Assembly: GCF_029855045.1 (NCBI RefSeq)
Contig: NZ_CP123228.1
Coordinates: 2,790,001 to 2,854,000, forward strand
Length of the DNA stretch: 64,000 bases
Origin: Piscinibacter sp. XHJ-5
Lineage (GTDB): Bacteria > Pseudomonadota > Gammaproteobacteria > Burkholderiales > Burkholderiaceae_C
Direction of reading: 5' to 3'
In this document: positions 8,441 through 39,416 of the stretch, piece by piece
How the letters are laid out: each line of letters opens with the position of its first letter
Numbering within the stretch: position 1 is the stretch's first letter
Notes under the pieces: generated by a model
Databases searched by the model: none
What the model was told of the DNA's origin: nothing
What the model saw: only the letters and a program-made list of their open reading frames with translations
Program-made: the position numbers and the translations under genes

Positions 8441-8441
8441 G

Positions 8442-23218: not shown

Positions 23219-23446
23219 ATGCACCTTCAAGTACCCATCGCCATTTCGGACGAGCTCGACGAGCACATCGTGGACTCGGTCCCGGCCGCACAGCCCGACT
23301 ACGCCTTCACCAGCGGCAAGCTGTCCCATGCCGGAAAGCACGTGGAGTTCAGCGTGCAGGTCGACCCGTTCAGCGGTCGCTACAGCGTGACGGCCAACGA
23401 GCTGCTCGACATCAAGGTCCGCGCCGTCGCCCGCCTGGAGGAGTGA
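23219..23446 (+). CDS. Small protein of unknown function upstream of mtnA
   Basis: 75 residues, MHLQVPIAISDELDEHIVDS at the start, acidic and soluble, with QVDPFSGRYSVTANELLDIKV near the end. It ends five bases before mtnA, so it is probably co-transcribed. The frame extends upstream through the terminator at 23061, so a start after that hairpin is preferred. No family recognised. Confidence 0.5.
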   Translation: MHLQVPIAISDELDEHIVDSVPAAQPDYAFTSGKLSHAGKHVEFSVQVDPFSGRYSVTANELLDIKVRAVARLEE

Positions 23447-23451
23447 GCCGC

Positions 23452-24528
23452 ATGGCGAGCCGCACCGAATCGCTGGCCGGCGCCCTCCCTGCGACGCTGG
23501 AGTGGCGCGACGACACCTTGTACCTGCTGGACCAGACGCGCCTGCCGCTGCAGATCGTCGTCGAGCGCCAGGCGAGCGTCGAGGAGGTGTGGGAGTCCAT
23601 TCGCGCGCTGAAGGTGCGTGGCGCCCCGGCCATCGGCGTGGCGGGCGCCTACGGCCTCTGCGTCGCGATGCAGGGCAGCCGCAACGCGGGGGTCGCCGCG
23701 TTTCGTGCACGCCTCGCGGAGCAGGCCGCCTACCTCGCGTCCGCCCGACCCACCGCGGTCAACCTGCGATGGGCCGTGCAGCGTCTGCAGGACCGCATCG
23801 CCGGCCATGACGACGCGGGCAGCTCGTCGACGCTCTACGATGTGCTGCTCGACGAGGCCAGGCGCATCCACGACGAGGACCAGGCGCTGTGCGAAGGCAT
23901 CGGCCGCAACGGCCAGGCGCTCATCCGCCCGGGCTGCGGCATCCTCACGCACTGCAACGCCGGCGCGCTCGCGACCACCGGCATCGGCACCGCCACGGCG
24001 CCGATGTACCTCGCGCACCGGTCCGGCACGCCGTTTCGCGTGTACGCCGACGAGACGCGGCCGCTGCTGCAGGGCGCGCGCCTCACGGCCTTCGAACTGC
24101 AGCGCGCGGGCATCGACGTCACGCTGCTCACCGACAGCATGGCCGCTGCCACGATGCAGCGCGGCCTCGTCGATCTGGTCATCGTGGGCACCGACCGCGT
24201 GGCGGCCAACGGCGACTTCGCCAACAAGATCGGCACGCTGGGCGTGGCCATTCTCGCCAAGCACTTCGGCATTCCGATGTACGTCGCGTGCCCTTCTTCC
24301 ACGCTCGACCTCGCGACGCGCGCAGGCGAGGACATCGTGATCGAGGAACGCGCGGGCGACGAGGTGACGAGCTTCGGCGCCCGCCGCACGGCGCCCGAGG
24401 GGGTGGCGGTGCGCAACCCTTCCTTCGACGTCACGCCGCACACGCTGGTCGCCGGATTCATCACCGAGCGCGGCCTCGTCGGGCCGCCATTCGAGCAGAA
24501 CTTGTCGTCGCTCTTCGGGATGGGCTGA
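23452..24528 (+). CDS. mtnA: 5-methylthioribose-1-phosphate isomerase MtnA
   Basis: Isomerises 5-methylthioribose 1-phosphate to the ribulose form. 358 residues. Motifs are intact: RGAPAIGVAGAYG at residues 56-68, the catalytic Cys in THCNAGALATTGIG and the catalytic Asp in GTDRVAANGDFANKIGT. It converges with a class II aldolase gene 6 bases downstream. No mtnB, mtnC, mtnD or masD-type genes of the full salvage pathway lie nearby, which favours the shorter DHAP shunt. Confidence 0.93.
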   Translation: MASRTESLAGALPATLEWRDDTLYLLDQTRLPLQIVVERQASVEEVWESIRALKVRGAPAIGVAGAYGLCVAMQGSRNAGVAAFRARLAEQAAYLASARPTAVNLRWAVQRLQDRIAGHDDAGSSSTLYDVLLDEARRIHDEDQALCEGIGRNGQALIRPGCGILTHCNAGALATTGIGTATAPMYLAHRSGTPFRVYADETRPLLQGARLTAFELQRAGIDVTLLTDSMAAATMQRGLVDLVIVGTDRVAANGDFANKIGTLGVAILAKHFGIPMYVACPSSTLDLATRAGEDIVIEERAGDEVTSFGARRTAPEGVAVRNPSFDVTPHTLVAGFITERGLVGPPFEQNLSSLFGMG

Positions 24529-24534
24529 TTCGCC

Positions 24535-25218
24535 TCAGCGGTCGGGCAGGCGGGTCGCGAGCCGCGTCGACCCGTACGCTCGGAACCGATCGCGAACGAT
24601 GCGCATCTCCTGCGGGTCGAGGAGGACGGGCGGGCCGACCTGCAGGCTCATCCAATACTGCCGCGCCAGGGTCTCCAGCCGGGTCGCTGTCGCGATCGCC
24701 TGCTCGATGTCCGCGCCCCAGCCGATCATGCCGTGATTGGCGAGCAGGCAGGCGCTGCGATCGACGAGTGCATCGGCGGCCAGGCGCGCGAGCGTCTCGG
24801 TGCCGAACGTGGCGTACGGCGCGCATCGCACGTCGTCGCCGCCGAAGGTCGCGATCATGTAATGAAAGGCGGGGATCCCGCTGCGCAGGCACGCCAGCGC
24901 CACGCACGCGTCCGAGTGGGTATGGACGATCGCCTGCGCCTGCGGGTAGCGCCGGTAGATCTCGGTGTGCATGGCCCATTCGCTCGATGGAATGCCCGGG
25001 CCGCGCGTCTCGCCGTCGAGCGTGATCTCCACCAGCGACGCGGCGTCGATCGTCTCGGCGCTCGCGCCGGTCGGGGTCACCAGCGCGCCATCCTCGAGCC
25101 GGCAACTCACGTTGCCGGCGCTGCCGCTGTTCAGGCCCAGCCGCGACAGGTGCCGGTAGGCGGCGGCGAGCCGGTGCCGCAGGTCGGACGCGGGCGAAAA
25201 GGAGTCGTGCTCGCTCAT
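24535..25218 (-). CDS. Class II aldolase/adducin family aldolase (Ald2-like)
   Basis: 227 residues from the ATG at 25218. Zinc and catalytic residues follow the fuculose-phosphate aldolase pattern exactly: E80, H99, H101 and H162 (spacing 19, 2 and 61, as E73/H92/H94/H155). Next to mtnA, the best guess is the DHAP-shunt aldolase that splits 5-methylthioribulose 1-phosphate or 5-deoxyribulose 1-phosphate into DHAP and an aldehyde. MtnB (dehydratase) belongs to the same fold and cannot be fully excluded. An upstream in-frame ATG at 25260 is less likely. Confidence 0.83.
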   Translation of the reverse strand: MSEHDSFSPASDLRHRLAAAYRHLSRLGLNSGSAGNVSCRLEDGALVTPTGASAETIDAASLVEITLDGETRGPGIPSSEWAMHTEIYRRYPQAQAIVHTHSDACVALACLRSGIPAFHYMIATFGGDDVRCAPYATFGTETLARLAADALVDRSACLLANHGMIGWGADIEQAIATATRLETLARQYWMSLQVGPPVLLDPQEMRIVRDRFRAYGSTRLATRLPDR

Positions 25219-25554
25219 CGAGGGACGCCCCAGGCGCGCGCGCGGACCGAGCGGGTCCATGAGACGGACAGGGCAGGGGACGTCATCTGAGCCTCCTCGA
25301 CACGGCTGGACCTGAACGCCAGTCTAGTTCGCACCGTCCGCATCGCAAGCCCACGCGTGGTTCCGATCTCCGGGGCTGCCCACGCGCACATCAGAAGTCG
25401 GCCTTCCGTCACAACTCAGGATGTGAGCCGGAGGGCCCAGCCGTTAGAGTTCTTCGATCTTCAAGGCGATCGCAGTGCCCGAGCGCAGTCGGGGATTCGA
25501 TTTGCTGCTGACGCCGTGTCGCTGCAAAGCAGGTCGCGCCAACCTCTTCACCCC
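25219..25554. other. 336-base spacer between divergent genes
   Basis: Separates the aldolase gene (leftward) from the secreted-protein gene (rightward) and must hold both promoters. I see no repeat, RNA gene or clear operator in it. Confidence 0.4.
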
Positions 25555-26575: not shown

Positions 26576-27424
26576 TCAAGGCAGCGGCGTGAACTTCAGC
26601 TCGCTCAGCGGCACGACCTTGTCTTCGCGCACCATCTTGAACTCGGTGTTCGGGCCGAGCCACTTGGCCCAGATCTGGTTGATCTCGCCGGCCTTGTCCA
26701 ACTCGAGCAGGGTGGCGTTGATCTTCGCCAGCAGCGCCGGCTCATCCTTCTTCATGCCGATGCCGATGGGCTGCAGCGCCATCGGCTCGGGAATCATCTT
26801 CAGCTCCACGCCGCCGGTCTTCGACTGGTTGACGAGCTTGGTGATCGTCATCGTGTTCGCGACCATGCCGAGCGCCTTGTTCTGCTGCACGGCCATGTAC
26901 GCCGAGCCGGTGTCCTGGAAAGTGACCGGCTCCGAGCCGTTCATCTTGATGGACAGCTCGGAGGTCGAGCCCTTGGTGGAGGCCAGGCGCTTGCCCTTGT
27001 AGTCGGCCTTGCTCTTGCCGGGATCGCTCGCCTTGACGGCGAGCATCTCCTTGGCGAGGTAGTAGGGGTCGCTGAACTGGATCTGCTCCGCCCGGCCCAG
27101 CGTGTAGGCGAGGTTGGCGACCGTGATGTCGACGCGCCCCATCTTGACTTCGGGAACGCGGGCCTCGACCGACAGTGGCGTGATCTTGGCGGTGAGCCCC
27201 AGGCGCTTGGCCAGTGCGTTGCACAGGTCGACGTCGAAGCCGACCATCTCCCGCGTCTTCGGGTCCGGTGCCGCGAACGGCGGGACGTCGGCGAAGGTGC
27301 CGCAGCGCAGCTCCTTGCGCTGCTGGATGTCCTGCCACTGATCGGCGAGTGCGGCCAACGGCAAGGTGCTCAGGGCGAGGGCGGTGATGGCCGCTGGCTT
27401 TGCGGCGCGGATTCGGAAGGACAT
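26576..27424 (-). CDS. Polar amino-acid ABC transporter substrate-binding protein
   Basis: Periplasmic binding protein of the family-3 type, 282 residues with a signal peptide ending near ALAD. RKELRCGTFADVPPFAA and VGFDVDLCNALAKRLG are the typical N-lobe strands. It is the last gene of a leftward operon with two permeases and an ATPase. Since the operon is linked to 5-oxoprolinase genes and shares their Nac-type promoter element, glutamate, aspartate or 5-oxoproline is a plausible ligand, by inference only. Confidence 0.87.
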   Translation of the reverse strand: MSFRIRAAKPAAITALALSTLPLAALADQWQDIQQRKELRCGTFADVPPFAAPDPKTREMVGFDVDLCNALAKRLGLTAKITPLSVEARVPEVKMGRVDITVANLAYTLGRAEQIQFSDPYYLAKEMLAVKASDPGKSKADYKGKRLASTKGSTSELSIKMNGSEPVTFQDTGSAYMAVQQNKALGMVANTMTITKLVNQSKTGGVELKMIPEPMALQPIGIGMKKDEPALLAKINATLLELDKAGEINQIWAKWLGPNTEFKMVREDKVVPLSELKFTPLP

Positions 27425-27447
27425 GGCGGACTCCAGGGTGAGGACGC

Positions 27448-28182
27448 TCAGTGCGAGCGCAGGTCGGACAGGAAGCGTTGCGCGCGCGGGTGCCGCGGGC
27501 TGCGGAAGAAGGTCTCGGGCTCGGCCGATTCGAGGATGCAGCCGGCGTCCATGAACCACACGCGGTCGGCGACCTCGCGGGCGAAGTTCATCTCGTGCGT
27601 CACGCACATCATCGTCATGCCGTCGCCGGCCAGGCTGCGCATCACGGCCAGCACCTCCCCGACCATCTCGGGATCGAGGGCACTGGTCGGTTCGTCGAAC
27701 AGCATCGCGGGCGGCTCCATCGCCAGCGCGCGGGCGATCGCCACGCGTTGCTGCTGGCCGCCGGAGAGCTGGGCCGGGTACGACATGGCCTTGGACGCCA
27801 GGCCCACGCGTTCGAGCAGCTGCATCGCCTTCTCGCGGGCTTCGCCACGCTTGATGCCGCTCACGTGCACGGGCGACAGCATCACGTTGTCGAGGGCCGA
27901 CAGGTGCGGGAACAGGTTGAAGCTCTGGAACACGAACCCGATGCGGCTGCGCAGCTTGTTGAGCTGGGCGCTGCTCATCGGGGCGTGGATGTCGTGGCCG
28001 TCGACCACGACGCGGCCGGACTTGATCTCCTCCAGCCGGTTCACGGTGCGGATCAGCGTCGACTTGCCCGAGCCGGAAGGTCCGCAGACGACCACCACTT
28101 CGCCCTTCTTGACCTCGGCGTTGATGTCGGTGAGCGCGCGGTAGTGGCCGTACCACTTGTTGACGTCGGAGAACGTGATCAT
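27448..28182 (-). CDS. Polar amino-acid ABC transporter ATP-binding protein
   Basis: 244 residues. Walker [11 protein letters not shown]-loop [11 protein letters not shown], signature [15 protein letters not shown] and Walker [16 protein letters not shown] are intact, as in GltL/GlnQ. It lies between the permease and binding-protein genes with 12- and 23-base gaps. Confidence 0.92.
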
Positions 28183-28194: not shown

Positions 28195-28953
28195 TCAGGG
28201 CTCGGCGGCGATCGGCTGCGAGACGACGGCGGGCGGCGCCGCCGCGCCGGCGCCGCGCAGGCCGGCCCGCTTGGCCTCGATGTGCCGCTCCAGCGCGGTG
28301 GCCGCGCGGGTCAGGCTCCAGCACACGACGTAATAGATGGTCGCCAGGATGAAGAAGACGTGGAACGGCTTGGTCAGCAGCTGGTTGTTGATCTGGTTGG
28401 CCGCGAAGGTCAGCTCCGGCACGTTGATCACGTAGCCGAGCGTCGTCTCCTTGATCGTCGACACGAACTGGCTCAGCATGCTCGGCAGCATGTTGAACAG
28501 GGCCTGCGGCAGGATCACGAGTCGCATCGCGCCGAGATGGCTGTGCCCGAGGGCGCGCGCGGCTTCCATCTGGCCCTTGGGCAGCGCCTGGATGCCGGCG
28601 CGCACCACCTCGGCGAGGTAGGCGCCTTCATAGAGCACCAGCGTGCACAGCATGGTCACGAAGCCGGACACGTTGTGCCCGATCAGCAGCGGCACCAGGA
28701 AGTAGACCCACAGGATCACCATCAGCAGCGGCACGCCTCGTGCCACGTACACCAGCGCCGTGGCCGGCCAGTTCAGCACGCGCCAGGGCGACAGGCGGGC
28801 GAGCGCCAGCAGCACGCTGAGCGGAAAGGCCAGCGCGATGCCCAGCACCGACAGGATCAGCGTGCAGGCGATGCCGCCCAGGGGCCCGTTCGGGTACTGG
28901 CCGATCAGCAGCAGCAGCCAGTTGTCGCGCAGGATCTCGATGATCGTGTTCAT
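28195..28953 (-). CDS. Polar amino-acid ABC transporter permease (GltK-like)
   Basis: 252-residue HisM/GltK-type permease with about five hydrophobic helices and the coupling loop RAGIQALPKGQMEAARALGH. It pairs with the next gene upstream; together they form the heterodimeric pore. Four bases separate the two permease genes. Confidence 0.9.
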   Translation of the reverse strand: MNTIIEILRDNWLLLLIGQYPNGPLGGIACTLILSVLGIALAFPLSVLLALARLSPWRVLNWPATALVYVARGVPLLMVILWVYFLVPLLIGHNVSGFVTMLCTLVLYEGAYLAEVVRAGIQALPKGQMEAARALGHSHLGAMRLVILPQALFNMLPSMLSQFVSTIKETTLGYVINVPELTFAANQINNQLLTKPFHVFFILATIYYVVCWSLTRAATALERHIEAKRAGLRGAGAAAPPAVVSQPIAAEP

Positions 28954-28957: not shown

Positions 28958-29659
28958 TCACCTGGCGCCGACGATGCGGCTGCGGCGGTCCAGCCAGGCG
29001 CCGCCGGCCATGATGAGCAGCGAGAAGGCCAGGTACATCACGCTCGCCAGCAGGTAGGTCTCGAAGGCGCGGAAGCTCTGGTTCTCGATCTCCTTGACCG
29101 CGTGCGTGAGCTCGGCCACGCCGATGGCCATCGCCAGGCTGCTGTTCTTGAACAGCGAGACGCTGTGGTTCACCAGCGCCGGCAGCGCGTGGCGCACCGC
29201 CTGCGGCATCAGCACGTGACGCATCGAACCGATGAAGCTGTGGCCGAGCGCTCGCGCCGCTTCGGCCTGGCCGAGCGGGATGGAGCGCAGCCCGGAACGC
29301 AGGTCCTCGCTGAAGTAGGCCGCCTGGCAGAGCCCGAGGCCGATCACCGCGAACAGCGCCTCGCCGTTGTGCTCGCCCAGCCAGCCCTGCACGCTGGCGG
29401 GCAGCAGGCTGGAAATGCCGAAGTACCACAGCATCAGCTGCACCAGCGTGGGCACGTTGCGGTGGTAGGACACGTAGCCTTCGACCGCGCGCCGGGCGAT
29501 GCGGCTCGGCGTGAGGCGCACGACGAGCAGCACGACCGCGAGGCCCATGGCCAGCAGCCAGGAGCCCAGCGCGATGACCAGCGTCATCTGCGCACCGTGC
29601 ACCAGCATCCTGCCGAACTCGGGGTTCAGCAGGATGGCCATGAGGTCGAAGCCTTTCAT
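28958..29659 (-). CDS. Polar amino-acid ABC transporter permease (GltJ-like)
   Basis: 233 residues, permease with coupling loop RSGLRSIPLGQAEAARALGH and hydrophobic helices from residue 20 onward. It is the first transporter gene after the SDR gene, 25 bases downstream of it, so it belongs to the same transcript. Confidence 0.9.
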   Translation of the reverse strand: MKGFDLMAILLNPEFGRMLVHGAQMTLVIALGSWLLAMGLAVVLLVVRLTPSRIARRAVEGYVSYHRNVPTLVQLMLWYFGISSLLPASVQGWLGEHNGEALFAVIGLGLCQAAYFSEDLRSGLRSIPLGQAEAARALGHSFIGSMRHVLMPQAVRHALPALVNHSVSLFKNSSLAMAIGVAELTHAVKEIENQSFRAFETYLLASVMYLAFSLLIMAGGAWLDRRSRIVGAR

Positions 29660-29684: not shown

Positions 29685-30437
29685 TCAGGCCGGCGGCTGT
29701 TCGGGGCGGGCCGTCGACAGGCCGCCCGGCACCTGCAGCGTCGGCGTGATTTCCATGTGGCCGATGTTCACGGCCACCGGCGCGGCGATCGCGAAGGCGA
29801 TCGCGTTGGCGATGTCGGCCGCCTGCGGCAGCTCGAAGCCCTTGACGAAGCGCTCGTAGGTTTCGGCGGAGTCCCCGTGCACATGCGCGAAGATCTCGGT
29901 GGCCACGCGCCCCGGGCAGATCTCGGTGACGCGCACGCGCTTGCCGAAAGCATCGATGCGCAGCTGGCGCGACAGCATGCTGATCGCCGCCTTCGTCGCG
30001 TGGTAGGTGGAGTTGCCGCCGAAGTTGTAGGCCCCGGCGATCGAGCTGATGTTGACGACGTGGCCGCGATCGCGCGCCACCATGCCCGGTACGACCAGGC
30101 GGCACAGGTGCAGCACGGCGCGCAGGTTCACGTCGACGAGCAGGTCGACGTCCTCTTCGCTCGCCTTGAGGAGGGAGTTCGGCCGGTCGACACCGGCGTT
30201 GTTCACGAGCACGTCGAACTCCACTTCCCCGGCGAGCCGCGCGATGCCGCCGACATCGGTCACGTCGAGCACGTGCGCGATGCAGCCCGTGCGCGCCGCC
30301 AGCACCTCCAGGTTCGGCGCGCTGCGCGCGATGGCATGCACCTGCAGGCCTTCGCGCGACAGGCGCTCCACGACCGCGGCGCCGATGCCGGACGAGGCGC
30401 CGGTGACCAGGGCTGTCTTGTAGTCGGAGAACGGCAT
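29685..30437 (-). CDS. Short-chain dehydrogenase/reductase
   Basis: 250-residue classical SDR. Cofactor motif TGASSGIG near residue 12, NNAG near 87, catalytic Ser in NISSIAG and YHATK. It most resembles YdfG-type serine/3-hydroxy acid dehydrogenases (LSRQLRIDAFGKRVRVTEICPG), so an amino-acid or hydroxyacid substrate is possible. It leads the transcript that contains the ABC transporter and lies 78 bases after a Nac-type site. Confidence 0.87.
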   Translation of the reverse strand: MPFSDYKTALVTGASSGIGAAVVERLSREGLQVHAIARSAPNLEVLAARTGCIAHVLDVTDVGGIARLAGEVEFDVLVNNAGVDRPNSLLKASEEDVDLLVDVNLRAVLHLCRLVVPGMVARDRGHVVNISSIAGAYNFGGNSTYHATKAAISMLSRQLRIDAFGKRVRVTEICPGRVATEIFAHVHGDSAETYERFVKGFELPQAADIANAIAFAIAAPVAVNIGHMEITPTLQVPGGLSTARPEQPPA

Positions 30438-30489: not shown

Positions 30490-30530
30490 GCCAAGACGGA
30501 ATGGATGTGGAGCGATAAGGGGACCTTATG
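30490..30530 (-). promoter_or_regulatory. Nac-type operator element before the SDR-transporter operon
   Basis: A 41-bp block matching 32 of 41 bases of the block at 35189-35229. It contains ATAAGGGGACCTTAT (30515-30529), which fits the ATA-N9-TAT consensus of the nitrogen regulator Nac and is also a near-perfect dyad. It overlaps the pxpA stop codon and precedes the SDR start by 78 bases. Confidence 0.7.
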
Positions 30531-31296
30531 CGTGGACCTGGCGCGAGATCGGCACGATGCGGTGGCCCGCGGCTTCGACCTCGTTGCGGATCGTTCGCGC
30601 CAGCGCCACGGCGCCCGGCGTGTCGCCGTGCAGCAGGATCGACCGCGCGTTCATCGCCAGCGACTTGCCGGAATAGGTGGTCACCGTCCCGTCGCGCAGC
30701 AGGCGGCGCACGCGCTCCAGCACGGCCGCCTCGTCCTTGATGACCGAATCCGGGAGCTTGCGTGGAACGAGCAGGCCTTGGTCGTCGTAGGCACGGTCGG
30801 CGAGGAAGGTCGTGGCCACGCGCAGCCCGCAGCGCGCGGCGGCGCCCTCGATGGCGCGGCTGGTCGACGAGCTGACGATCAGCGTGGAGTCGAAGTCGGC
30901 CACGGCGCGCACCAGCGGCTCGGCCAGCGACGCATCGGCGGCGGCCATGTTGCCCAGGGCGCCATGAAAGCTCATGTGCGTCATGCGGTGCCCGGCAGCC
31001 CGGGCGATGCCGGCCAGCGCGCCGAGCTGGTAGACGACGAAGCTGGCGAGCTCGGCGGTGTCCATCTGCATCGGCCGCCGGCCGAAGCCCTGGCGGTCCG
31101 GGAAGCCGACATGCGCCCCGACGTCGATGCCGCGTGCCCTCGCCGTGCGGACGGTGCGTTCCATGATCACCGGATCGCCGGCATGGAAGCCGCACGCCAC
31201 GTTGGCCGAGGACACCAGCTCCAGCAGGGCCTCGTCCTCGCCCATGCGCCACGGGCCGTAGCCCTCTCCGAGATCCGCGTTCAGGTCGATGTCCAT
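30526..31296 (-). CDS. pxpA: 5-oxoprolinase subunit PxpA (LamB/YcsF family)
   Basis: 256 residues beginning MDIDLNADLGEGYGPWRMGEDE, the family hallmark. ANVACGFHAGDP and VGAHVGFPDRQGFGRR are the other conserved loops, with the metal-binding His and Asp residues. PxpA opens the ring of 5-oxoproline activated by PxpBC. It is the last gene of the pxp operon, three bases after the carrier-like gene. Confidence 0.92.
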   Translation of the reverse strand: MDIDLNADLGEGYGPWRMGEDEALLELVSSANVACGFHAGDPVIMERTVRTARARGIDVGAHVGFPDRQGFGRRPMQMDTAELASFVVYQLGALAGIARAAGHRMTHMSFHGALGNMAAADASLAEPLVRAVADFDSTLIVSSSTSRAIEGAAARCGLRVATTFLADRAYDDQGLLVPRKLPDSVIKDEAAVLERVRRLLRDGTVTTYSGKSLAMNARSILLHGDTPGAVALARTIRNEVEAAGHRIVPISRQVHA

Positions 31297-31299
31297 GCC

Positions 31300-31719
31300 T
31301 CAGTCCACCATCTCGATCAGGGGATCGCCGTAGCCGACGGCATCGCCGTCCCGCGCGCGCAGGCTTGCGACGACGCCGTTGCGCGGCGCGGCGACGTGCA
31401 CCAGCACCGGCCCGACCTGCAGCAGCGCGAGCACCTGTGCGCAGGAGACGCTGGCGCCGACCGGCGCCAGCGGCGCATCGCGAAGGGGGTGCCTGAGCCG
31501 CACGATGCCGACGCCGGAAGCGGGGACGACCGTTGCGCCGGGGCTCGTCTGCGGCGTCCGTTGCGCCGGCAGGTCGACACCTGCGCCTTGCAGCGCGGCT
31601 TCGCCGCTGGTGCCGCGAACCAGGCGCAGCCGCGTCAGCGGCCCGCTCAGCTCGAGCACCGCGATGTCGGTGTCGGCCAGCCACGCGGCAAGCTGTCGGA
31701 AGCGTTCGAGCGCATCCAC
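31300..31719 (-). CDS. Biotin-carrier-like protein without the biotin lysine
   Basis: 139 residues if the GTG at 31719 is used; GGGAG lies five bases before it. The architecture mirrors AccB (N-terminal helix, LRLVR, linker, then a lipoyl-type domain with VHVAAPRNGVVASLRARDGDAV and YGDPLIEM). Where AccB has EAMKV, this protein reads LLQVG, so no lysine can be biotinylated. An ATG at 31782 is in frame but would overlap pxpC by 60 bases. Either a degraded paralogue or an adaptor for the carboxylase or oxoprolinase subunits. Confidence 0.75.
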   Translation of the reverse strand: MDALERFRQLAAWLADTDIAVLELSGPLTRLRLVRGTSGEAALQGAGVDLPAQRTPQTSPGATVVPASGVGIVRLRHPLRDAPLAPVGASVSCAQVLALLQVGPVLVHVAAPRNGVVASLRARDGDAVGYGDPLIEMVD

Positions 31720-31721
31720 CG

Positions 31722-32711
31722 TCAGCTCCCGAATCGCACGCGCTGGTGAAGGTCGAGCACGCGGCGGGTCTCGTCGAGCCACTCGCGCAACTCATCGAGC
31801 GCCGCCACGGCGTCGTCCCAGGTGGTCCGGATGAAGCGCACGTGGCTGCCGATGGCGGCCTGGCCCAGTCGCCACAGGTCGGCCTCGATGACGGTCCCGA
31901 GCTTGGGATAGCCGCCTGAAGGCTGTGCATCGCGCATCTGCACGATCGGCTGGCCACCGGGCGGCACCTGGATGACGCCCGGGACGATGCCGTGCGAGCG
32001 CATCTCCACCGCGGCGACGGGCTCGAGCGCCTCGCCCGCCAGCCTGTAGCCGTAACGGTCGCTCTGCGGCGTGACCTTCCATGCAGTGCCCCAGAACGCC
32101 TCGCGCGAAGCAGCGGTGTAGTCCTCGTACTCGGCTGCGGGGAGGACGCGCATGGCCGGGCAGCCATCGACCTGCAGCGGCAGCACGAGCGCGGGAGGCA
32201 CGAGCCCGATGCCGGTCGCGCGCGTCGCACGTCCCGGTGCGGCCGCCCGCAGCCTGTCCCCCTTGCGCAGCGCGCGTCCTTCAAGGCCGCCGAACGCGCC
32301 TCGCAGCTGCGTGCTGCGCGAGTCGAGCACGCAAGGCACGTCGACGCCCCCGGCCAGGCACAGATAGGCACGCGCCGCACGCCATGCGGTGCCCTGCGGC
32401 ACGCCGAGGACGAGCACCTGTCCTGCACGGGCCTCGTAGGTCGACCACGGCATCAGCGGACGTGCATCGAGCGTCGCCGCGCAGTCGGCGCCCGTCACCG
32501 CGAAGGCGCAGTCCTCGACGAAGCGCACGCGAAACGGAAACACCGGGATCTCGACCGCGGCAGCGGACGCCTCGTTGCCCAGCAGCAGGTTGCCCGCGGC
32601 GAGCGCCACGGCATCCATCGCGCCCGAAGTGCCGACTCCCCAGCGCAGGCTGCCCGTGCGGCCAAGGTCCTGCACCGTGGCGAGCGCGCTGGACGACACG
32701 ATCTCGATCAT
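31722..32711 (-). CDS. pxpC: 5-oxoprolinase subunit PxpC / biotin-dependent carboxyltransferase family
   Basis: 329 residues of the KipA/urea amidolyase-like family. VQDLGRTGSLRWGVGTSGAMD near the start and GYPKLGTVIEADLWRLGQ near the end are conserved. With PxpB it phosphorylates or otherwise activates 5-oxoproline in the ATP-dependent reaction. The family name refers to homology with the carboxyltransferase part of biotin enzymes, which is notable beside the biotin genes here. Overlaps pxpB by four bases. Confidence 0.9.
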   Translation of the reverse strand: MIEIVSSSALATVQDLGRTGSLRWGVGTSGAMDAVALAAGNLLLGNEASAAAVEIPVFPFRVRFVEDCAFAVTGADCAATLDARPLMPWSTYEARAGQVLVLGVPQGTAWRAARAYLCLAGGVDVPCVLDSRSTQLRGAFGGLEGRALRKGDRLRAAAPGRATRATGIGLVPPALVLPLQVDGCPAMRVLPAAEYEDYTAASREAFWGTAWKVTPQSDRYGYRLAGEALEPVAAVEMRSHGIVPGVIQVPPGGQPIVQMRDAQPSGGYPKLGTVIEADLWRLGQAAIGSHVRFIRTTWDDAVAALDELREWLDETRRVLDLHQRVRFGS

Positions 32712-33367
32712 CGGATCACCTTCTCGACGCGAAAGCGGATGCTGTCTCCCGGCTGCAGCAAGGCCGGCGGATCGCGCATCGGATCGAAGAAGCACATGTC
32801 GGTACTGCCGATCGTGTTCCAGCCGCTGGGTCCGGCCGACGCCGACACGCCGGTCTGGGCGCCGCCGATCGAGACGGCCCCGCCGGGAATGCTCACCACC
32901 GGCACCTTGCGCCGTGGCGTCGCGATGCGCGGGTCCATGCCGCCGAGATAGCAGTAGCCGGGATGGCTGCCGAGCGCGTACACCGGGTACAGCGGGGCGC
33001 TGTGCAGCTCGACGATCTCGTCGATGGTCAGGCCCGTGTGCGCGACCACGTCGGCCATGTGCGGACCGCCGCCGCCGCCGTACGTGACCGGCAGCTCGAT
33101 CACGCGTCCTTCGAGCGACAGCGGCTGGACGAGCTCCCATGCGGTGCGCAGCCGGTCCTCGAGCGCCCGCAGCTGGCGGGGAGGTTGCACGAAGGTGATC
33201 ATCAGGTTGTTCATGCCCGGCACCGCCTCGCGCACTTCGGGCCATGCCTGCGCTTCGCGGGCGAGCGCCCAGATGCGCTGCTGCGCGGCGAGCGTCATCG
33301 GCCCGCCGGACTCGAACAGCGCGGCCGTCGTGCCCAGGACGCTGAAAGTGGCTGCCTGCGTGCTCAT
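32708..33367 (-). CDS. pxpB: 5-oxoprolinase subunit PxpB (KipI family)
   Basis: 219 residues. [40 protein letters not shown] and [11 protein letters not shown] are diagnostic KipI/PxpB blocks. It overlaps accC by four bases (ATGA) and pxpC by four bases, so the order accC-pxpB-pxpC is translationally coupled. Confidence 0.92.
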
Positions 33368-34722
33368 GCCGAGGCTCTGTGCGCCAGCCAGCGCTCGAGG
33401 TGATGGATGTCGACACCGCCGGCCGAGAAGGCGTCATCGCGAACGATGTCCCGGTGCAGCGGCAGGTTGGTCGAGATGCCGCCGACCTTCATTTCCGAGA
33501 GCGCCTGGCGCAGACGGATCAGCGCGTCCTCGCGGCTCGTGCCGTGCACGATCAGCTTCGCGACCATCGAGTCGTAGTACGGCGGCACGCGGTAGCCGAC
33601 GCCGGCATGGCTGTCGACCCTGACGCCCCATCCGCCCGGCAGGCTCCATTCGGTGATGCGGCCGGGCGAGGGGGCAAACGTGCGCGGGTCCTCGGCGTTG
33701 ATGCGGCACTCGAGCGCATGGCCGCGGCAGGCCACGTCGGCCTGTGCGATCGACAGCACCTCGCCGCGCGCGACGCGGATCTGCTGCTGCACGATGTCGA
33801 TGCCCGAGGTCATCTCGGTCACCGGATGCTCGACCTGCAGCCGCGTGTTCATCTCGATGAAGTAGAACGCGTCGTTCTCGTACAGGAATTCGAAAGTGCC
33901 GACGCCGCAATAGCCGATCTGCCGGCACGCGGCGGCGCACCGCTCGCCCACTTGCGCGATCAGCGCGGCAGCGATGTGCGGCGCCGGCGCCTCCTCGAGC
34001 ACCTTCTGGTGCCTGCGCTGCAGCGAGCAGTCGCGGCTGCCCAGCCAGACGGCGTTGCCATGGCTGTCGGCGAGCACCTGGATCTCGACGTGGCGCGGGT
34101 GGAGGAGGAACTTCTCGATGTAGACCTCCGGATTGGCAAAGGCGCGCCGCGCCTCCTCGCGGGTGAGCGCCAGGGCATCGGGAAGACCGGACTCCTCTCG
34201 CACCACACGCATGCCGCGGCCGCCGCCGCCGCCTGCCGCCTTGACGATGACGGGGTAGCCGATCTCGCGTGCGATCGCCTGCACGGCGGCCGGGTCTTCC
34301 GGCAGCGACCGGTCCGGGCCCGGCACGCACGGCACGCCCGCGGCGCGCATCGCGCGCTTGGCGGACACCTTGTCGCCCATCATGCGGATGCACGCGGAGC
34401 TCGGGCCGATGAAGGTCAACCCGGCGCGCTCGACGCTCTCGACGAACCCGGCGTTCTCGGAGAGGAAGCCGTAGCCCGGATGGATGGCCTGCGCGCCGCT
34501 GACCTCGGCGGCCAGCAGGATGGCGGCCTGGTTCAGGTAGCTCTGGCCCGCCGAGGCGGGTCCGATGCACAGTGCCTGGTCCGCCTGCGCGACGTACGAC
34601 GCATCGCGATCGGCCTCGGAGTGAACCGCCACCGTGCGCAGCCCGAGGCCGCGGCACGCGCGCAGGATGCGAAGGGCGATCTCGCCGCGATTGGCAATGA
34701 GGACGGTGTCGAACATGATCAC
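33364..34722 (-). CDS. accC: Biotin carboxylase (AccC-type) in the pxp operon
   Basis: 452 residues, full biotin carboxylase: [20 protein letters not shown] at the N-terminus, [11 protein letters not shown], the ATP-grasp loop [11 protein letters not shown], and [20 protein letters not shown]. It carboxylates biotin on AccB. A housekeeping copy should exist elsewhere; this one is locked between the carrier gene and pxp[14 protein letters not shown] uses the upstream ATG at 34722; the internal ATG two codons later is equally possible. Confidence 0.92.
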
Positions 34723-34740
34723 CTCAGCGGGCGCCGGTCA

Positions 34741-35157
34741 TCACGCGTAGCGAAGCAGGGGCTGGCCGGCTTCGACTTCCTGACCCGATGTCACCAGCAC
34801 GGCAGCGACCGTGCCGTCGTGCTCGGCGACCACTTCGTTGAACACCTTCATCGCCTCGATGACGCACAGCGTCTGGCCCGCCTGGACGGCCTGGCCGACG
34901 CTGACGAAGGGCGGATCGCCGGGGGTCTGCTGGAGGTGGACGACGCCGAAGAGCGGGGCGGTCAGTTCCTTCGCGGGGGCCGCCGCGGGCGGCGCGTCGC
35001 GCCGCGACGGCGCCGGGACCTCGGCGCCGCGCACGGCTTGGACAGCCGCACCGCTGCGCACCAGGCGCAGGGTCCAGCCGTCCTGGCTGAACTCCGCCTC
35101 GGTGAGGTCCGACGCCGCCATGGCGTCGATGAAGGCCTTGATCTGCTGCTGGTCCAC
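34741..35157 (-). CDS. accB: Biotin carboxyl carrier protein (AccB-type) in the pxp operon
   Basis: 138 residues from a GTG start at 35157, which restores the classic opening DQQQIKAFIDAMAASDLTE. The biotin site CVIEAMKVFNEV is intact with K104. The Pro/Ala linker lies at 47-65. First gene of the leftward transcript accB-accC-pxpB-pxpC-carrier-pxpA and 57 bases from the Nac-type element. No good ribosome site precedes the GTG; a TTG farther upstream at 35193 is in frame. Confidence 0.88.
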   Translation of the reverse strand: MDQQQIKAFIDAMAASDLTEAEFSQDGWTLRLVRSGAAVQAVRGAEVPAPSRRDAPPAAAPAKELTAPLFGVVHLQQTPGDPPFVSVGQAVQAGQTLCVIEAMKVFNEVVAEHDGTVAAVLVTSGQEVEAGQPLLRYA

Positions 35158-35188: not shown

Positions 35189-35229
35189 GCCAAGACGGAA
35201 TGGGTGTGCCTAGATAAGAGCCGCTTATG
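35189..35229 (-). promoter_or_regulatory. Nac-type operator element before the accB-pxp operon
   Basis: Second copy of the 41-bp block seen at 30490-30530. It contains ATAAGAGCCGCTTAT (35214-35228), again ATA-N9-TAT, overlaps the stop codon of the nac-like gene and precedes accB by 57 bases. Confidence 0.7.
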
Positions 35230-36151
35230 ACGGATCGTCCGGTGTGGCCAGGCTGCCCGGCAAGGTCGCCACCAGCTCCAGGAGGATCTCCTTGACCGCC
35301 TGTGCCGGCTCGGACAGCGGCAGGTGGTCCGACTGGCACAGCGCGAGCGGAGCCTCGATGACCGGATCGATGATGCGCGACAGCCAGGCGTCGCAGGCCT
35401 TCACCACTTCGCGCGCCATCGAGGCGGGCAGGATGCTCATGCCCAGCCCGTCGGCGATGACGGCGGTCAGCGTGCTCGCCGACTCGATCTCGGCCACCAC
35501 GCGCGGAACCATGCCGGCGCTGATGAAGGCTTCGTCGACCAGGCGGCGCACGACGTTGTAGGGCCGCGGCAGGTACAGGTCCGTGTCCGCCAGCACCTTC
35601 AGCGGCACGGTCTCGGGCGGGGCCGGCAGCGACTTCGGGCCGACCAGGTAGAGCGGCTCGCGCAGCAGCGGAATGAACTTCAGTCCGTGCACGGCAACCT
35701 TGCCGCCGTAGAGCACGGCCAGGTCCATGCGTCCGTTCATGATCAGCTCGGACAGCGTGCTGCCGTAGCTCTCGTTGAGATACGGCAGCACGCCGGGGTG
35801 CCGCGCGCGCAGGATGCGCAGCAGCGGCAGCGCCAGCGTGGCGGCCGCGGTTCCGGGCGCCAGCCCCACCGACACCGCGCCCGACACCCCTCGGCTCGCC
35901 GCGACCATGTCCACCTGGGCCTGGTCGCATTGGCGCAGGATCAGCTGGGCATGCCGGTACAGCACCTTGCCCGCCTCGGTGGGCGTGACCCCGCGCTTGG
36001 TGCGCACGAGCAGCTGCTGGCGCACCTCGCCCTCGAGCGTGGCGAGTTGCTGGCTGAGCGCGGGCTGCGCGATGTGCAGGACATCGGCGGCCTGCGTCAG
36101 GCTGCCGATGTCGACGATCTTGACGAAGTATTTCAGTCGTCTCAGGTTCAT
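35225..36151 (-). CDS. nac: Nac-like LysR-family nitrogen assimilation regulator
   Basis: 308 residues, very close to enterobacterial Nac over its length: MNLRRLKYFVKIVDIGSLTQ then AADVLHIAQPALSQQLATLE, TKRGVTPTEAGKVLY, VGLAPGTAAA. The DNA-binding domain is residues 1-60, the effector domain follows. Nac activates or represses nitrogen genes under NtrC control. Its gene stands directly upstream of the accB-pxp operon in the same direction, and ATA-N9-TAT sites precede both that operon and the SDR-transporter operon. Confidence 0.87.
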   Translation of the reverse strand: MNLRRLKYFVKIVDIGSLTQAADVLHIAQPALSQQLATLEGEVRQQLLVRTKRGVTPTEAGKVLYRHAQLILRQCDQAQVDMVAASRGVSGAVSVGLAPGTAAATLALPLLRILRARHPGVLPYLNESYGSTLSELIMNGRMDLAVLYGGKVAVHGLKFIPLLREPLYLVGPKSLPAPPETVPLKVLADTDLYLPRPYNVVRRLVDEAFISAGMVPRVVAEIESASTLTAVIADGLGMSILPASMAREVVKACDAWLSRIIDPVIEAPLALCQSDHLPLSEPAQAVKEILLELVATLPGSLATPDDPS

Positions 36152-36513
36152 GGCAGGAGCGAGCTGGGCGGGACGGCTCGGCGCGAGAAGCTGCTTTCGA
36201 TCACGGAGAACACAGAGAACACACAGCCGAGGGCCACGTGAGAAAGAGAACTCCCGCTCCAGAAACCGTTCGCCCTGAGCCTGTCGAAGGGCTCAAGGCG
36301 AACGGGCCTGGTGCTTCTTCGCAAACGCCGGGCCGGTGACTGCGGCCTGGGATGCTCTGTGGCCTTCGGTGTTTCATCAGGAAGCTTGCCGCTCAACTGG
36401 CCCTCAGTTTGCATCCATAAGCGATGCCTATCAAGGCAGACCGAACTCGTCTTGGCCTTGGCGGCGACGGCGCTCTACCGTTATGCCTGCAGTCACCCGC
36501 CACAAGGAATTTC
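36152..36513. other. 362-base spacer with a dispersed repeat
   Basis: Between the divergent nac-like and aminotransferase genes. It contains the inverted repeat at 36266-36305 and a short run of related ACGGAGAACAC and AGAGAACACAC units at about 36202-36222, a pattern also seen in other beta-proteobacterial spacers. No gene seen. Confidence 0.5.
36266..36305. repeat. Dispersed Burkholderiales inverted repeat (REP-like)
   Basis: CCGTTCGCC at the left end pairs with GGCGAACGG at the right end, with CTGAGCCTGTCGAAGGGCTC between them. This is the well-known intergenic repeat of this order; it forms a hairpin and is usually present in many genome copies. Confidence 0.8.
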
Positions 36514-37722
36514 GTGAGCCCGTCCCGCATCGCTGCTCGTGTACGCCGCATCAAGCCTTCCCCCAGCACCTCGGCCGCCGACCGCGCCAACGAGCTGCGC
36601 CGCCAGGGGAAGTCCATCGTGAACCTGGTGGTGGGCGAGCCCGACTTCGACACGCCCGCGCACATCCGCCAGGCCGCCGCCGCGGCGATCGAGAAAGGGC
36701 AGACGCGCTACACGCTGATGGCGGGCACGGTGGAGCTGCGCCAGGCCATTGCCGCCAAGCTCGAGCGCGAGAACGGCCTCGTCTACGCGCTCAACGAGAT
36801 CATCGCCACCAGCGGCGCCAAGAGCGCCATCTACAGCGCGTTCTCGATCACGCTCGAACCCGGCGACGAGGTGATCATCCCCGCGCCGTACTGGGTTTCC
36901 TATCCCGACATGGTTCTGGCCTGCGACGGTGTGCCTGTGATCGTCGCCTGCCCCGAAGCGAAAGGCTTCAAGCTGACGCCGACCCAGCTCGAGGCGGCCA
37001 TCACGCCCAAGACGCGCTGGCTGCTGATCAATTCGCCGAGCAATCCCACCGGTGCCAGCTATACCGCCGAGGAGTACCGTGCGCTGGCCGACGTGCTGCT
37101 GCGGCATCCGCAGGTGCTCGTGATGACCGACGACATCTACGAGCACATCCGCTTCGACGACCGCCGCACGCCGCACCTGCTGAATGCCGCCCCCGAATTG
37201 CGCGAGCGCACGCTGGCGGTCAACGGCGTCTCCAAGACCTATGCGATGACCGGCTGGCGCATCGGCTGGGTGGCCGGTCCGCGCGACCTGGTGCAGGCGC
37301 TGGACACGCTGCTCTCCCAATCCACCGGCAACTGCTGCTCGGTCAGCCAGGCGGCTGCCGCCGCCGCGCTGAACGGCGACCAGCGCTTCATCGGCGAGAG
37401 CGTGGCCACCTACAAGCAACGGCGCGACCACACGCTGGCGCGCATCAACGCGATCCCGGGCCTGAGCTGCCGCGCACCCGACGGGGCCTTCTACCTGTAC
37501 GTGAATTGCGCCGGGCTGATCGGCAAGACCACGCCCGACGGTAGGCGCCTCGGCGAGGACGGCGATGTCGTGATGCACCTGCTGGAGAGCGTCGGCGTTG
37601 CCGTCGTCGCCGGCACGGCGTACGGGCTGTCGCCGTACTTCCGCCTGTCGATCGCGACCTCCCTCGACATCCTGGACGAAGGCTGTGCGCGCATCGCGCG
37701 GGCCGTTGCCGAACTGCACTGA
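36514..37722 (+). CDS. Aspartate aminotransferase family PLP enzyme
   Basis: 402 residues from a GTG start at 36514, with AAGGAAT seven bases before it; MPIKADRT at 36424 is also in frame but precedes the family start. Fold-type I aminotransferase: INSPSNPTGASY, DDIYEHIRF, the PLP lysine in NGVSKTYAMTGWRIGW and the final R in FRLSIATS. First gene of a five-gene operon with an RraA-like aldolase and a 2-hydroxyacid dehydrogenase, which suggests it feeds a 2-oxoacid into them. Confidence 0.88.
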   Translation: MSPSRIAARVRRIKPSPSTSAADRANELRRQGKSIVNLVVGEPDFDTPAHIRQAAAAAIEKGQTRYTLMAGTVELRQAIAAKLERENGLVYALNEIIATSGAKSAIYSAFSITLEPGDEVIIPAPYWVSYPDMVLACDGVPVIVACPEAKGFKLTPTQLEAAITPKTRWLLINSPSNPTGASYTAEEYRALADVLLRHPQVLVMTDDIYEHIRFDDRRTPHLLNAAPELRERTLAVNGVSKTYAMTGWRIGWVAGPRDLVQALDTLLSQSTGNCCSVSQAAAAAALNGDQRFIGESVATYKQRRDHTLARINAIPGLSCRAPDGAFYLYVNCAGLIGKTTPDGRRLGEDGDVVMHLLESVGVAVVAGTAYGLSPYFRLSIATSLDILDEGCARIARAVAELH

Positions 37723-37727: not shown

Positions 37728-38402
37728 ATGAGCACCTACAAAGCCCTCCGCAAGAATCCGTCGGCGCCGCAGGTCGGCGAATCGCTGATCGTCGCGCTGC
37801 GCGACATCCCGGTGGCCGCGCTGAGCGACAACATGCACCGCAACACCGGCACGGTGGGCCTGCACCCGTACCACCGGCCCGGCCGTCAGACGATGGCCGG
37901 CACCGCCGTCACGGCGCGCTCGCGCGGCGGCGACAACTTGACTTTCCTGCGCGCGCTGGAGTTCTGCCGGCCCGGCGACGTGCTGGTGATCGACGCCGGC
38001 GGCGACGTCGGCAACGCGGTGATCGGCGGCATCCTGTCGTTCTATGCCGCGACCGCGGGCCTTGCCGGCCTGGTGATCGACGGCGCCATCCGCGACGTGG
38101 CCGAGATCCGCGAGCGCGAGTTCCCGATCTATGCGCGCGGCGTCACCCATCGCGGCCCCTACAAGGATGGCCCCGGGGAAATCAACGTGCCGGTGTCGGT
38201 GGGCGGCATGGTGGTGAATCCGGGCGACATCGTCGTCGGCGATCAGGACGGCCTGCTCGCGATTCCTCCGGCAGAGGCCGACCTCGTCCTGGAGGGCGCG
38301 CGCAGGACGCTCGCCAACGAAGCGAACACCATGCGGGCGATGAAGGAAGGACGCTGGGACCGGTCGTTCATCGATGCGCTGGAAGCGCGCTGCAACAACT
38401 GA
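37728..38402 (+). CDS. RraA family protein (HMG/CHA aldolase-like)
   Basis: 224 residues of the RraA/4-hydroxy-4-methyl-2-oxoglutarate aldolase family. GGDVGNAVIGGILSFYAATAG and the catalytic VIDGAIRDVAEI with Arg and Asp are present, so it is more likely an aldolase/oxaloacetate decarboxylase than the RNase E regulator RraA. It starts five bases after the aminotransferase stop. Confidence 0.85.
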   Translation: MSTYKALRKNPSAPQVGESLIVALRDIPVAALSDNMHRNTGTVGLHPYHRPGRQTMAGTAVTARSRGGDNLTFLRALEFCRPGDVLVIDAGGDVGNAVIGGILSFYAATAGLAGLVIDGAIRDVAEIREREFPIYARGVTHRGPYKDGPGEINVPVSVGGMVVNPGDIVVGDQDGLLAIPPAEADLVLEGARRTLANEANTMRAMKEGRWDRSFIDALEARCNN

Positions 38403-38414: not shown

Positions 38415-39416
38415 ATGCACTGCGCCGTACTCGCCACCCGCGCGACCTTCCCGGACATCGCCGACCGGCTGCGCCAGCATTTCGACGTCGAGGACAACCC
38501 GGCCGACACGATCTTCAGCCCCGAGGAGCTGCTCCGGCGGCTGCAGGGCAAGCACGGCGTGATGAGCACCGGCAGCGAACGGATCGATGCGGCACTGCTC
38601 GATGCGTGCCCGCAGCTGCGCGCCGTCTGCAACGTCGGCGTCGGCTACAACAACGTCGACGTCGACGCCTGCACGGCGCGCGGCGTCCTGGTCACCAACA
38701 CGCCGGACGTGCTGACCGAGACGACCGCGGACTTCGGCTTCGCGCTCATGATGGCCGCGGCGCGGCGCATCGCCGAAGCCGAGCACTTCCTGCGTCGGGG
38801 CGATTGGACCCGGACCGGCATCTACGACATGTTCCTCGGAAGCGACGTCCATGGTGCGACCCTCGGCATCCTCGGCATGGGCCGCATCGGCCAGGCCATT
38901 GCGCGACGCGGTGCGCTGGGCTTCGGCATGCGGGTGATCTATCACAACCGCACGCGGCTCGCGCCGGCCGTCGAGGCCGGATGCCGCGCCGAATACGTCG
39001 ACAAGGACACCCTGCTCGGTCAGTCGGATCACCTGGTGCTCGTGTTGCCGTACTCGCAGAGCTCGCACCACGCGATCGGCGCGGCCGAGCTCGACCGGAT
39101 GAAGCCGACCGCGACGCTGACCAACATCGCCCGGGGCGGCATCGTCGACGACGCTGCGCTGGCGCGGGCGCTGAGGTCGGGCAGGATCGCTGCGGCAGGC
39201 CTGGACGTGTTCGAAGGCGAGCCGACCCTTCGTCCCGAGCTGCTGGCCCTGCCCAATGTCGTGCTCACGCCCCACATAGGCAGCGCCTCGGTCGGCACGC
39301 GCCGCGCGATGGCCTCGCTCGCCGTCGACAACCTGATTGCTGCGCTGGGCTGCGGCCCGCAGGCCGGCAGGCCGCCCTCGCCGGTGAACCCGGCGGTGCT
39401 GCAGAAACGGCCATGA
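38415..39416 (+). CDS. D-isomer-specific 2-hydroxyacid dehydrogenase (GhrB-like)
   Basis: 333 residues. NAD(P) motif GILGMGRIGQAIARRG, catalytic Arg in NIARGGIVDD, Glu in FEGEPTLRP and His in TPHIGSASVGTR are intact. It reduces a 2-oxoacid (glyoxylate, hydroxypyruvate or 2-ketogluconate in relatives). It sits between the aldolase-like gene and the gluconate dehydrogenase-like SDR. Confidence 0.9.
   Translation: MHCAVLATRATFPDIADRLRQHFDVEDNPADTIFSPEELLRRLQGKHGVMSTGSERIDAALLDACPQLRAVCNVGVGYNNVDVDACTARGVLVTNTPDVLTETTADFGFALMMAAARRIAEAEHFLRRGDWTRTGIYDMFLGSDVHGATLGILGMGRIGQAIARRGALGFGMRVIYHNRTRLAPAVEAGCRAEYVDKDTLLGQSDHLVLVLPYSQSSHHAIGAAELDRMKPTATLTNIARGGIVDDAALARALRSGRIAAAGLDVFEGEPTLRPELLALPNVVLTPHIGSASVGTRRAMASLAVDNLIAALGCGPQAGRPPSPVNPAVLQKRP

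Follow-up and report, generated by a model that had tools for sequence, protein, structure and literature searches.

The 64,000-nucleotide stretch of the Piscinibacter sp. XHJ-5 genome analysed here (contig NZ_CP123228.1, positions 2,790,001 to 2,854,000; hereafter the window) carries an operon in which genes for a biotin carboxylase (BC) and a biotin carboxyl carrier protein (BCCP) lie beside pxpB, pxpC and pxpA. The first-pass annotation had described accB, accC, pxpB, pxpC, a second, carrier-like gene and pxpA as a leftward 5-oxoprolinase operon with four-base overlaps at accC/pxpB and pxpB/pxpC. The coordinates of the open reading frames (ORFs) bear out this order, the strand and both overlaps, each of which reads ATGA:

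34741-35157, minus strand: accB, GTG start, active-type biotin carboxyl carrier with the biotinylation motif EAMK (in frame, CVIEAMKVFNE), called with a profile built here
33364-34716, minus strand: accC, biotin carboxylase with nine active-site residues intact, distinct from the likely housekeeping copy
32708-33367, minus strand: pxpB, CT_C_D, ATGA overlap with accC
31722-32711, minus strand: pxpC, CT_A_B, ATGA overlap with pxpB, closest solved relative E. coli YbgK
31300-31719, minus strand: second carrier gene (pseudo-carrier below), GTG start, 2-base gap from pxpC, AccB paralog
30526-31296, minus strand: pxpA, LamB/YcsF family (LamB_YcsF match)

Family searches of the encoded proteins returned biotin carboxylase domains, CT_C_D, CT_A_B and LamB_YcsF, and for the second carrier a weak Biotin_lipoyl match. 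PxpA, PxpB and PxpC are all encoded together in the window, and PxpBC is the only partner of carboxyltransferase (CT) fold encoded in the operon. The arrangement is not due to chance, because this set of genes is found side by side again and again in Pseudomonadota. The Piscinibacter genome, a single contig of 6.65 Mb, holds one PxpC, one PxpA and seven biotin carboxylase frames. The earlier idea of a biotin-linked reaction at this locus presupposed a further accBC set in the genome, and a separate accB-accC pair (L003) was indeed found; its AccC is 67% identical to that of the operon and its AccB hairpin reads EAMKIMNEIEADKSG, and it is likely the housekeeping accBC. With this pair present, the possibility that the operon accBC are themselves the housekeeping genes was rejected.

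A CT_A_B match was present in 81 of the 199 Pseudomonadota genomes surveyed. Survey loci were CT_A_B frames below 1100 amino acids (aa); leaving out urea-carboxylase-size frames and a contig-edge fragment (G004) gave 76 loci, taken with about 6 kb on either side where the contig allowed and annotated with profiles of the window genes. A BC stood beside PxpBC at 19 of the 76: 11 loci of type II (fused BC-BCCP, with a PxpB-PxpC fusion in 10), five of type IV (a small BCCP with EVMK; L049 is cut by a contig end) and three of type III, the type to which the window belongs (L044, L071, L081). At L056 the second carrier alone, with no BC, lay beside PxpBC, and by the same profiles and flanks no BC was found beside PxpBC at the other 56. 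On a PxpC tree of 96 rows, made by a quick method and containing several long branches, the BC label requires 6 changes; type III groups with BC-free PxpC (SH-aLRT support 99) and type IV lies near urea carboxylase (SH-aLRT 92). Among solved structures, the closest relatives of the window PxpC and PxpB are E. coli YbgK and YbgJ, with PxpC scoring 228 bits against YbgK vs 95 for urea carboxylase.

The combination of accBC with pxpABC is not new, because it is annotated in Staphylococcus aureus and in a Lactiplantibacillus plasmid (L118) and occurs in several separate PxpBC lineages. An excerpt of one paper describes a six-gene S. aureus operon including pxpB, pxpC, pxpA, accB and accC (PMC11315280). 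The annotation of L118 lists pxpB, pxpC, BCCP, BC, a putative hydro-lyase, pxpA and an NRAMP transporter. This Lactiplantibacillus plantarum plasmid is typed as conjugative, and we take its gene context to be similar to that of the BC-free B. subtilis kip operon. L213, the second PxpA locus of a Gluconacetobacter genome (G215) that also carries type III, holds one more PxpABC set linked to BC, and the PxpA motif there reads VKTHGALGN. At L121, on a Pseudomonas oryzihabitans plasmid, PxpB matches are split over two open frames beside PxpC.

We noticed that the window PxpA departs from its family at two motifs: canonical VKPHGALYN reads MSFHGALGN and ICVHGD reads ILLHGD, so that a Lys is replaced by Ser and a Cys by Leu. 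Both residues are kept in canonical (50/50), type II (11/11) and type IV (5/5) PxpA and in the one Bacillota sequence aligned (1/1). The main type III loci with a BC gave 75 PxpA rows, or 73 once two from a neighbouring cluster (L161, L166) were set aside, and the PxpA of L154, which is in two pieces, was left out of the alignment; Ser occupies the Lys position in 70 of the 73 and Leu the Cys position in all 73. In the BC-less type III loci, Ser and Leu are found in 11/11. PxpB changes likewise, since the Phe of GFxPGF, present in 57/57 canonical, 11/11 type II and 6/6 type IV rows, is Ser in the window, as it is across type III (90 of 93 rows) except in three early branches. The window PxpA and PxpB exceed some NCBIfam cut-offs for 5-oxoprolinase subunits; PxpC reaches 299.6 bits, below the PxpC_5OPro equivalog cut-off of 500.

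A further PxpA gene is present in 18 of 21 type III genomes; none further was found in the window genome, G107 or G218, where the apparent PxpA gene is one gene in two pieces. Among 30 PxpA loci, a motif scan returned Lys and Cys at 12, Cys alone at 8, the type III motif at 7 and no reading at 3, the last being S/L in the alignment. None of the 18 genomes with a further PxpA lacks a Cys-bearing copy (L043 counted for G188), and we therefore argue that type III does something else. The window genome itself has a 1249-aa HyuA-HyuB frame with what appears to be a single-chain 5-oxoprolinase layout. Because PxpA and PxpB have lost otherwise invariant residues, the label "5-oxoprolinase operon" is doubtful and probably does not apply; judging from these residues, 5-oxoproline is probably not the substrate of type III PxpABC.

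The gene called carrier-like in the first-pass annotation does encode a relative of the carriers, an AccB paralog, and that label needs correcting in one respect, as the biotin lysine is gone: the hairpin reads QVGPVLVHV in place of EAMKVFNEV, with Pro at the biotin position. In an alignment of 167 carriers from 90 type III-clade loci (the window, 4 plasmid, 80 named-genome and 5 first-survey loci; L118 and L120-L122 were left out as other types), 78 have Lys at this position and 89 do not, with a single lysine-less carrier at 89 of the 90 loci. Two lysine-bearing carriers are found at L161 alone, one of them within a neighbouring BC set. The position is occupied by P in 43 of the 89 pseudo-carriers, followed by L (8), S (7), H (7), V (6), D (6), A (5), T (3), N (2) and G (2). 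Their consensus has an (I/V)GPLLLPV-like hairpin for EAMKVFNEV, and many have VGYG close to the end. A pseudo-carrier profile was searched against 5.8 billion proteins, the 7998 candidates sharing most words being scored; among the 120 matches listed of 186, 105 lack the lysine, the window's own protein included, and the 15 with it resemble housekeeping AccB, at E-values of 3.8e-17 or weaker. Many of the lysine-less carriers (P0005-P0106) are publicly named acetyl-CoA carboxylase biotin carboxyl carrier protein, which looks like misannotation.

Ratios of nonsynonymous to synonymous substitution (dN/dS), estimated pairwise with simple Nei-Gojobori counts from pairs with dS of 0.05-2, indicate that the pseudo-carrier is under purifying selection, with medians of 0.51 in Variovorax, 0.26 in Enterobacterales and 0.31 in Rhizobium; active BCCP medians are 0.31 in Variovorax and 0.34 in Rhizobium, and PxpA, PxpB, PxpC and AccC fall at 0.05-0.21. 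An AlphaFold2 model from a 35-row alignment (predicted TM-score 0.58) has a predicted local distance difference test score (pLDDT) of 95-98 over the biotinyl domain, together with an N-terminal helix and hairpin, and in the Protein Data Bank (PDB) it best matches 1bdo, the biotinyl domain from E. coli (TM-score 0.90 by target). A BCCP fold is accordingly what the model predicts. Pseudo-carriers are also retained where accBC is missing, and a structural role for them seems likely. No publication on the cluster or on a bacterial non-biotinylated BCCP paralog was found among the open-licence literature matches listed.

The BC-BCCP module appears intact at the sequence level. The window AccB keeps its biotin lysine, giving the operon an AccC together with a biotinylatable BCCP, and the nine AccC active-site residues, at positions we take from E. 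coli numbering, are intact in 76 type III AccC rows above 300 bits, one of them gapped at K116. The CT side reads differently. An excerpt of PMC5770610 proposes Lys1605 of KlUA as the general base of the urea carboxylase CT. Mapped by PDB alignment to GTK(1605)YNPSR, this position is K in 10/10 urea carboxylases aligned and 6/6 type IV PxpB, and R in the window, 56/57 canonical, 11/11 type II and 93/93 type III PxpB rows. A urea-carboxylase-like CT for the window was rejected on the basis of this Arg and of the tree grouping with BC-free PxpC. The six type IV clusters (L045, L046, L049, L052, L055, L120) keep the lysine in PxpB and lie near urea carboxylase. By these sequence features, they appear better candidates than the window for true biotin-dependent amide carboxylation.

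AccC, the active carrier and the pseudo-carrier occur together in 74 of the 90 type III-clade loci. Three others lack the active carrier only and are all contig-cut (L128, L134, L147); 11 have the pseudo-carrier only, with neither AccC nor active carrier, of which L151 is contig-cut, leaving 10 uncut; L187 lacks AccC only, and L065 lacks AccC, active carrier and pseudo-carrier. At L187 (8370-9297, Agrobacterium vitis CG78 plasmid), a natural accC-less version of the cluster, the pseudo-carrier directly follows accB; accC is present in L198, a close relative. Those Enterobacterales that lack accBC fall into two separate clades on a careful PxpC tree (79 rows, 31 of 110 having been dropped for thinning), and forcing them together costs 104 log units (P = 9e-6, approximately unbiased test). 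At E-values up to 1e-60, 10 BC-less genomes each hold one stand-alone BC of housekeeping-like appearance, 60-64% identical to that of the window (two in G206), plus frames of about 1200 aa; extra BC frames measure 472 aa in G205 and 502 aa in G207. In three BC-bearing genomes, by comparison, the AccC of the cluster shares 71-82% identity with that of the window. At the thresholds used, a scan for PxpB and PxpC positions tracking BC absence found two conservative ones only (PxpB Ile/Leu, PxpC Val/Ile) and no mechanistic marker.

Judged by gene content, the dedicated BC is dispensable for the cluster, because BC-less lineages keep the rest of it. That BC-BCCP acts with PxpBC where it is present is somewhat favoured; that it is strictly required is doubtful. 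The first-pass idea of a biotin-linked reaction is thereby weakened: its supporting part, a conserved and sequence-intact accBC module beside the operon's only CT-fold proteins, stands, but neither accC nor the active carrier is present in 10 uncut loci, which span two or more lineages, and the general-base Lys is absent from PxpB.

The operon belongs to a wider conserved cluster, in which the following features were recognised in the window:

35225-36151, minus strand: LysR-type regulator of the NAC family (481.5 bits, above the NF008410 equivalog cut-off of 309)
29685-30437, minus strand: short-chain dehydrogenase/reductase (SDR) oxidoreductase of the conserved cluster, from family searches and conservation
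28958-29659, minus strand: ABC permease, polar amino acid type, from family searches
28195-28953, minus strand: second ABC permease, called from position and conservation only
27448-28182, minus strand: ABC ATPase
26576-27448, minus strand: extracellular solute-binding protein, family 3, start approximate
36514-37722, plus strand: aspartate-type aminotransferase (listed ORF starts at 36424; homology from about 36514)
37728-38402, plus strand: RraA-like aldolase, in 30/80 relatives' loci
38415-39416, plus strand: D-2-hydroxyacid dehydrogenase, glyoxylate-reductase-like, in 12/80 loci
36417-36431: ATA-N9-TAT box before the aminotransferase gene
35214-35228: ATA-N9-TAT box before accB
30515-30529: ATA-N9-TAT box before the SDR gene

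The 80 relatives' loci are the best 80 of at least 574 found in named genomes with a profile of nine type III PxpC. PxpA, PxpB and PxpC were each found in all 80, AccC in 69, a NAC-like regulator in 76, the SDR in 77, the aminotransferase in 73, an ABC permease in 67 and the solute-binding protein in 64. The cluster was seen in alpha-, beta- and gammaproteobacteria, in genera including Variovorax, Rhizobium, Bradyrhizobium, Pseudomonas, Erwinia, Pantoea and acetic acid bacteria, which are largely plant- or soil-associated. Shinella and Rhizobium plasmids carry the same gene set, and their own annotation includes "nac". The candidate NAC box ATA-N9-TAT occurs three times in the window vs a mean of 0.8 in base-shuffled copies, with all three sites at promoter positions (before accB, the SDR gene and the aminotransferase gene), and it precedes the SDR gene in 75 of 78 loci vs 2.6 expected. 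These observations suggest, by inference from sequence, a NAC-controlled nitrogen-scavenging regulon.

Neighbouring genes hint at the substrate at class level only: the solute-binding protein resembles ancestral and glutamine-type amino-acid binders, the aminotransferase resembles aspartate aminotransferases, and the SDR falls in a YdfG-like group. A 4-hydroxyglutamate-type lactam, drawn from the RraA-like aldolase and the glyoxylate-reductase-like gene, was set aside as a guess, those genes being found in just 30/80 and 12/80 loci. In five Bradyrhizobium loci (L168, L170, L177, L186, L190) each cluster has two pxpBC pairs on opposite strands. L161 (10996-20953, Rhizobium rhizogenes OV677) has no pxpA between pxpC and the aminotransferase gene; immediately beyond its ABC genes come a second BCCP-BC set and a PxpA whose residues are canonical.

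Taken together, we give about an even chance to the following reading. The operon would encode a cyclic-amide hydrolase derived from PxpABC by neofunctionalisation; its BC-BCCP module would be accessory and dispensable, and one further subunit, non-biotinylated, would act in assembly. The cluster would be a catabolic one, NAC-controlled and hence responsive to nitrogen limitation, in Pseudomonadota of which many are plant- and soil-associated. Its ABC transporter would import a polar, amino-acid-like cyclic amide; the type III PxpABC would activate the amide and open the ring, and the aminotransferase and SDR would process the ring-opened product. The dedicated AccC and biotinylated AccB would most likely supply carboxybiotin to PxpBC and so aid ATP-driven amide activation, as an accessory, dispensable module, and the pseudo-carrier may be a subunit of the PxpABC/BC complex that serves in assembly or docking.

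Several observations weigh against this reading. Housekeeping AccBC could serve the BC-less clusters, which leaves dispensability short of proof. The pseudo-carrier and the changed active site are, from the sequences, not one package, because L044, L071 and L171 have a pseudo-carrier yet canonical PxpA Lys/Cys; of these early branches, L044 and L171 have Ala at the PxpB Phe position, and in L071 none of the three PxpA/PxpB residues has changed. Elsewhere the PxpA Lys position is Gly (L166, L181) or Asn (L176) rather than Ser, and the sole PxpA of L161 lies outside its type III cluster, beside another BC set. A single origin of the pseudo-carriers is weakly supported, the branch with all of them to one side having a value of 68 (few columns, many long branches), and their dN/dS exceeds that of PxpA, PxpB, PxpC and AccC in every group tested and that of the active carrier in Variovorax. 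As to regulation, the box precedes the aminotransferase gene in 34 of 74 loci and accB in 28 of 68, under half in each case (2.2-2.6 expected each), and that ATA-N9-TAT is a NAC site is our assumption from the Klebsiella literature.

The reaction could instead follow a strict urea-carboxylase-style route, with carboxybiotin used by PxpBC to carboxylate the amide nitrogen or lactim oxygen and PxpA hydrolysing the product, much as allophanate hydrolase acts after urea carboxylase. PxpBC does have the CT domains of urea carboxylase, AccC and AccB are sequence-intact and conserved, BC linkage recurs in several PxpBC lineages, and type IV PxpB keeps the general-base lysine; moreover, an excerpt on caprolactamase, a lactamase of another family, discusses a bicarbonate role and a carboxy-lactim route (PMC8453981). 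Fungal lamA/lamB were considered as a precedent for biotin-linked lactam use and set aside, since one paper excerpt does no more than name them as lactam-catabolism genes and a second says nothing about them. Nevertheless, the window PxpB has Arg at the Lys1605 position as canonical BC-free PxpB does, PxpC groups with BC-free PxpC rather than with urea carboxylase, 10 uncut loci lack accC and the active carrier and one more lacks accC alone, and just two conservative positions track BC absence, all of which make this strict route unlikely. The pseudo-carrier might also be an adaptor that recruits its own or housekeeping AccC/AccB to PxpBC, so that BC-less clusters still use carboxybiotin. This overlaps with the reading we prefer, and the AccB-like N-terminal helix and hairpin of the pseudo-carrier in the predicted model, the stand-alone AccC in all 10 BC-less genomes examined and the interaction of plant BADC with BC and BCCP (PMC11926652, in excerpt) are consistent with it; the conservation of the pseudo-carrier fits docking on PxpBC alone equally, and we regard the adaptor as rather unlikely.

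That the locus is an ordinary 5-oxoprolinase operon, with accBC a bystander or an extra fatty-acid set, would agree with the NCBIfam subunit names of PxpA and PxpB above some cut-offs, with YbgK/YbgJ as closest solved relatives and with the retention of the canonical residues in L071. It is quite unlikely given the loss of PxpA Lys/Cys and PxpB Phe, a PxpC score far under the equivalog cut-off (299.6 of 500), a Cys-bearing PxpA coexisting in 18 of 21 type III genomes, and an accBC kept inside the cluster across three classes while the genome has a separate pair. Lastly, the missing lysine and a dN/dS above that of PxpA, PxpB, PxpC and AccC in each group are what a decaying, functionless accB duplicate might exhibit, but the presence of the second carrier in 89 of 90 loci, dN/dS medians well below 1 in three groups, a common hairpin consensus, a BCCP fold predicted at pLDDT 95-98 and its retention where active accB is absent render decay very improbable.

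Compared with known systems, the neofunctionalised hydrolase proposed here shares with E. coli PxpABC (ybgJ-ybgK-ybgL type) three homologous subunits, the PxpC tree grouping and Arg at the urea carboxylase Lys position; it differs in the replaced PxpA Lys/Cys and PxpB Phe, in the added BC, BCCP and pseudo-carrier, and in its context of NAC, aminotransferase, SDR and ABC genes. Urea carboxylase or urea amidolyase likewise combines BC, BCCP and CT_A_B/CT_C_D parts followed by a hydrolase, with a nitrogen role that the window would share, whereas the window polypeptides are separate, lack the CT general-base lysine and have LamB/YcsF instead of allophanate hydrolase, and some lineages of the cluster have no BC module. 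In the BC-linked PxpABC operons (S. aureus pxp-acc, L118, types II and IV) accB/accC also adjoin pxpABC; in types II and IV and L118, however, no pseudo-carrier was detected in the annotated loci and the canonical PxpA Lys/Cys are present. Excerpts of a 2025 paper describe plant BADC proteins as BCCP paralogs without the biotinylation motif that aid BC-BCCP assembly, with an inhibitory role also proposed, and call them unique to plant acetyl-CoA carboxylase (PMC11926652). The likeness, a BCCP paralog non-biotinylated by sequence alongside a BC-BCCP system, is one of analogy only, and the window protein is bacterial, operon-borne and beside PxpBC rather than the acetyl-CoA carboxylase CT. By this analogy we can only tentatively suggest a BADC-like subunit that would assemble or gate a carboxybiotin-assisted PxpABC-type hydrolase of a new plant-derived nitrogen source, persisting where the biotin module is lost.

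Elsewhere in the window, an IF-2B family gene on the plus strand lies beside a class II aldolase gene on the minus strand (23443-25260), which looks like methionine salvage, and some ORF starts at 3352-10403 presumably resemble a phosphonate (phn) C-P lyase cluster.

Literature matches on accBC beside pxpABC held, in the excerpts they offered, no test of the role of accBC, and one paper, also in excerpt, files the pair under fatty acid synthesis (PMC11315280). Here, the same cluster exists with and without accBC in different lineages, so that bicarbonate or biotin dependence can be tested by direct comparison. In the pseudo-carrier, bacteria would have their own version of a kind of subunit described as plant-only. 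Finally, the altered PxpA and PxpB residues warn against annotating type III genes as 5-oxoprolinase, and suggest that rhizosphere and phyllosphere bacteria may use an unrecognised amide substrate.

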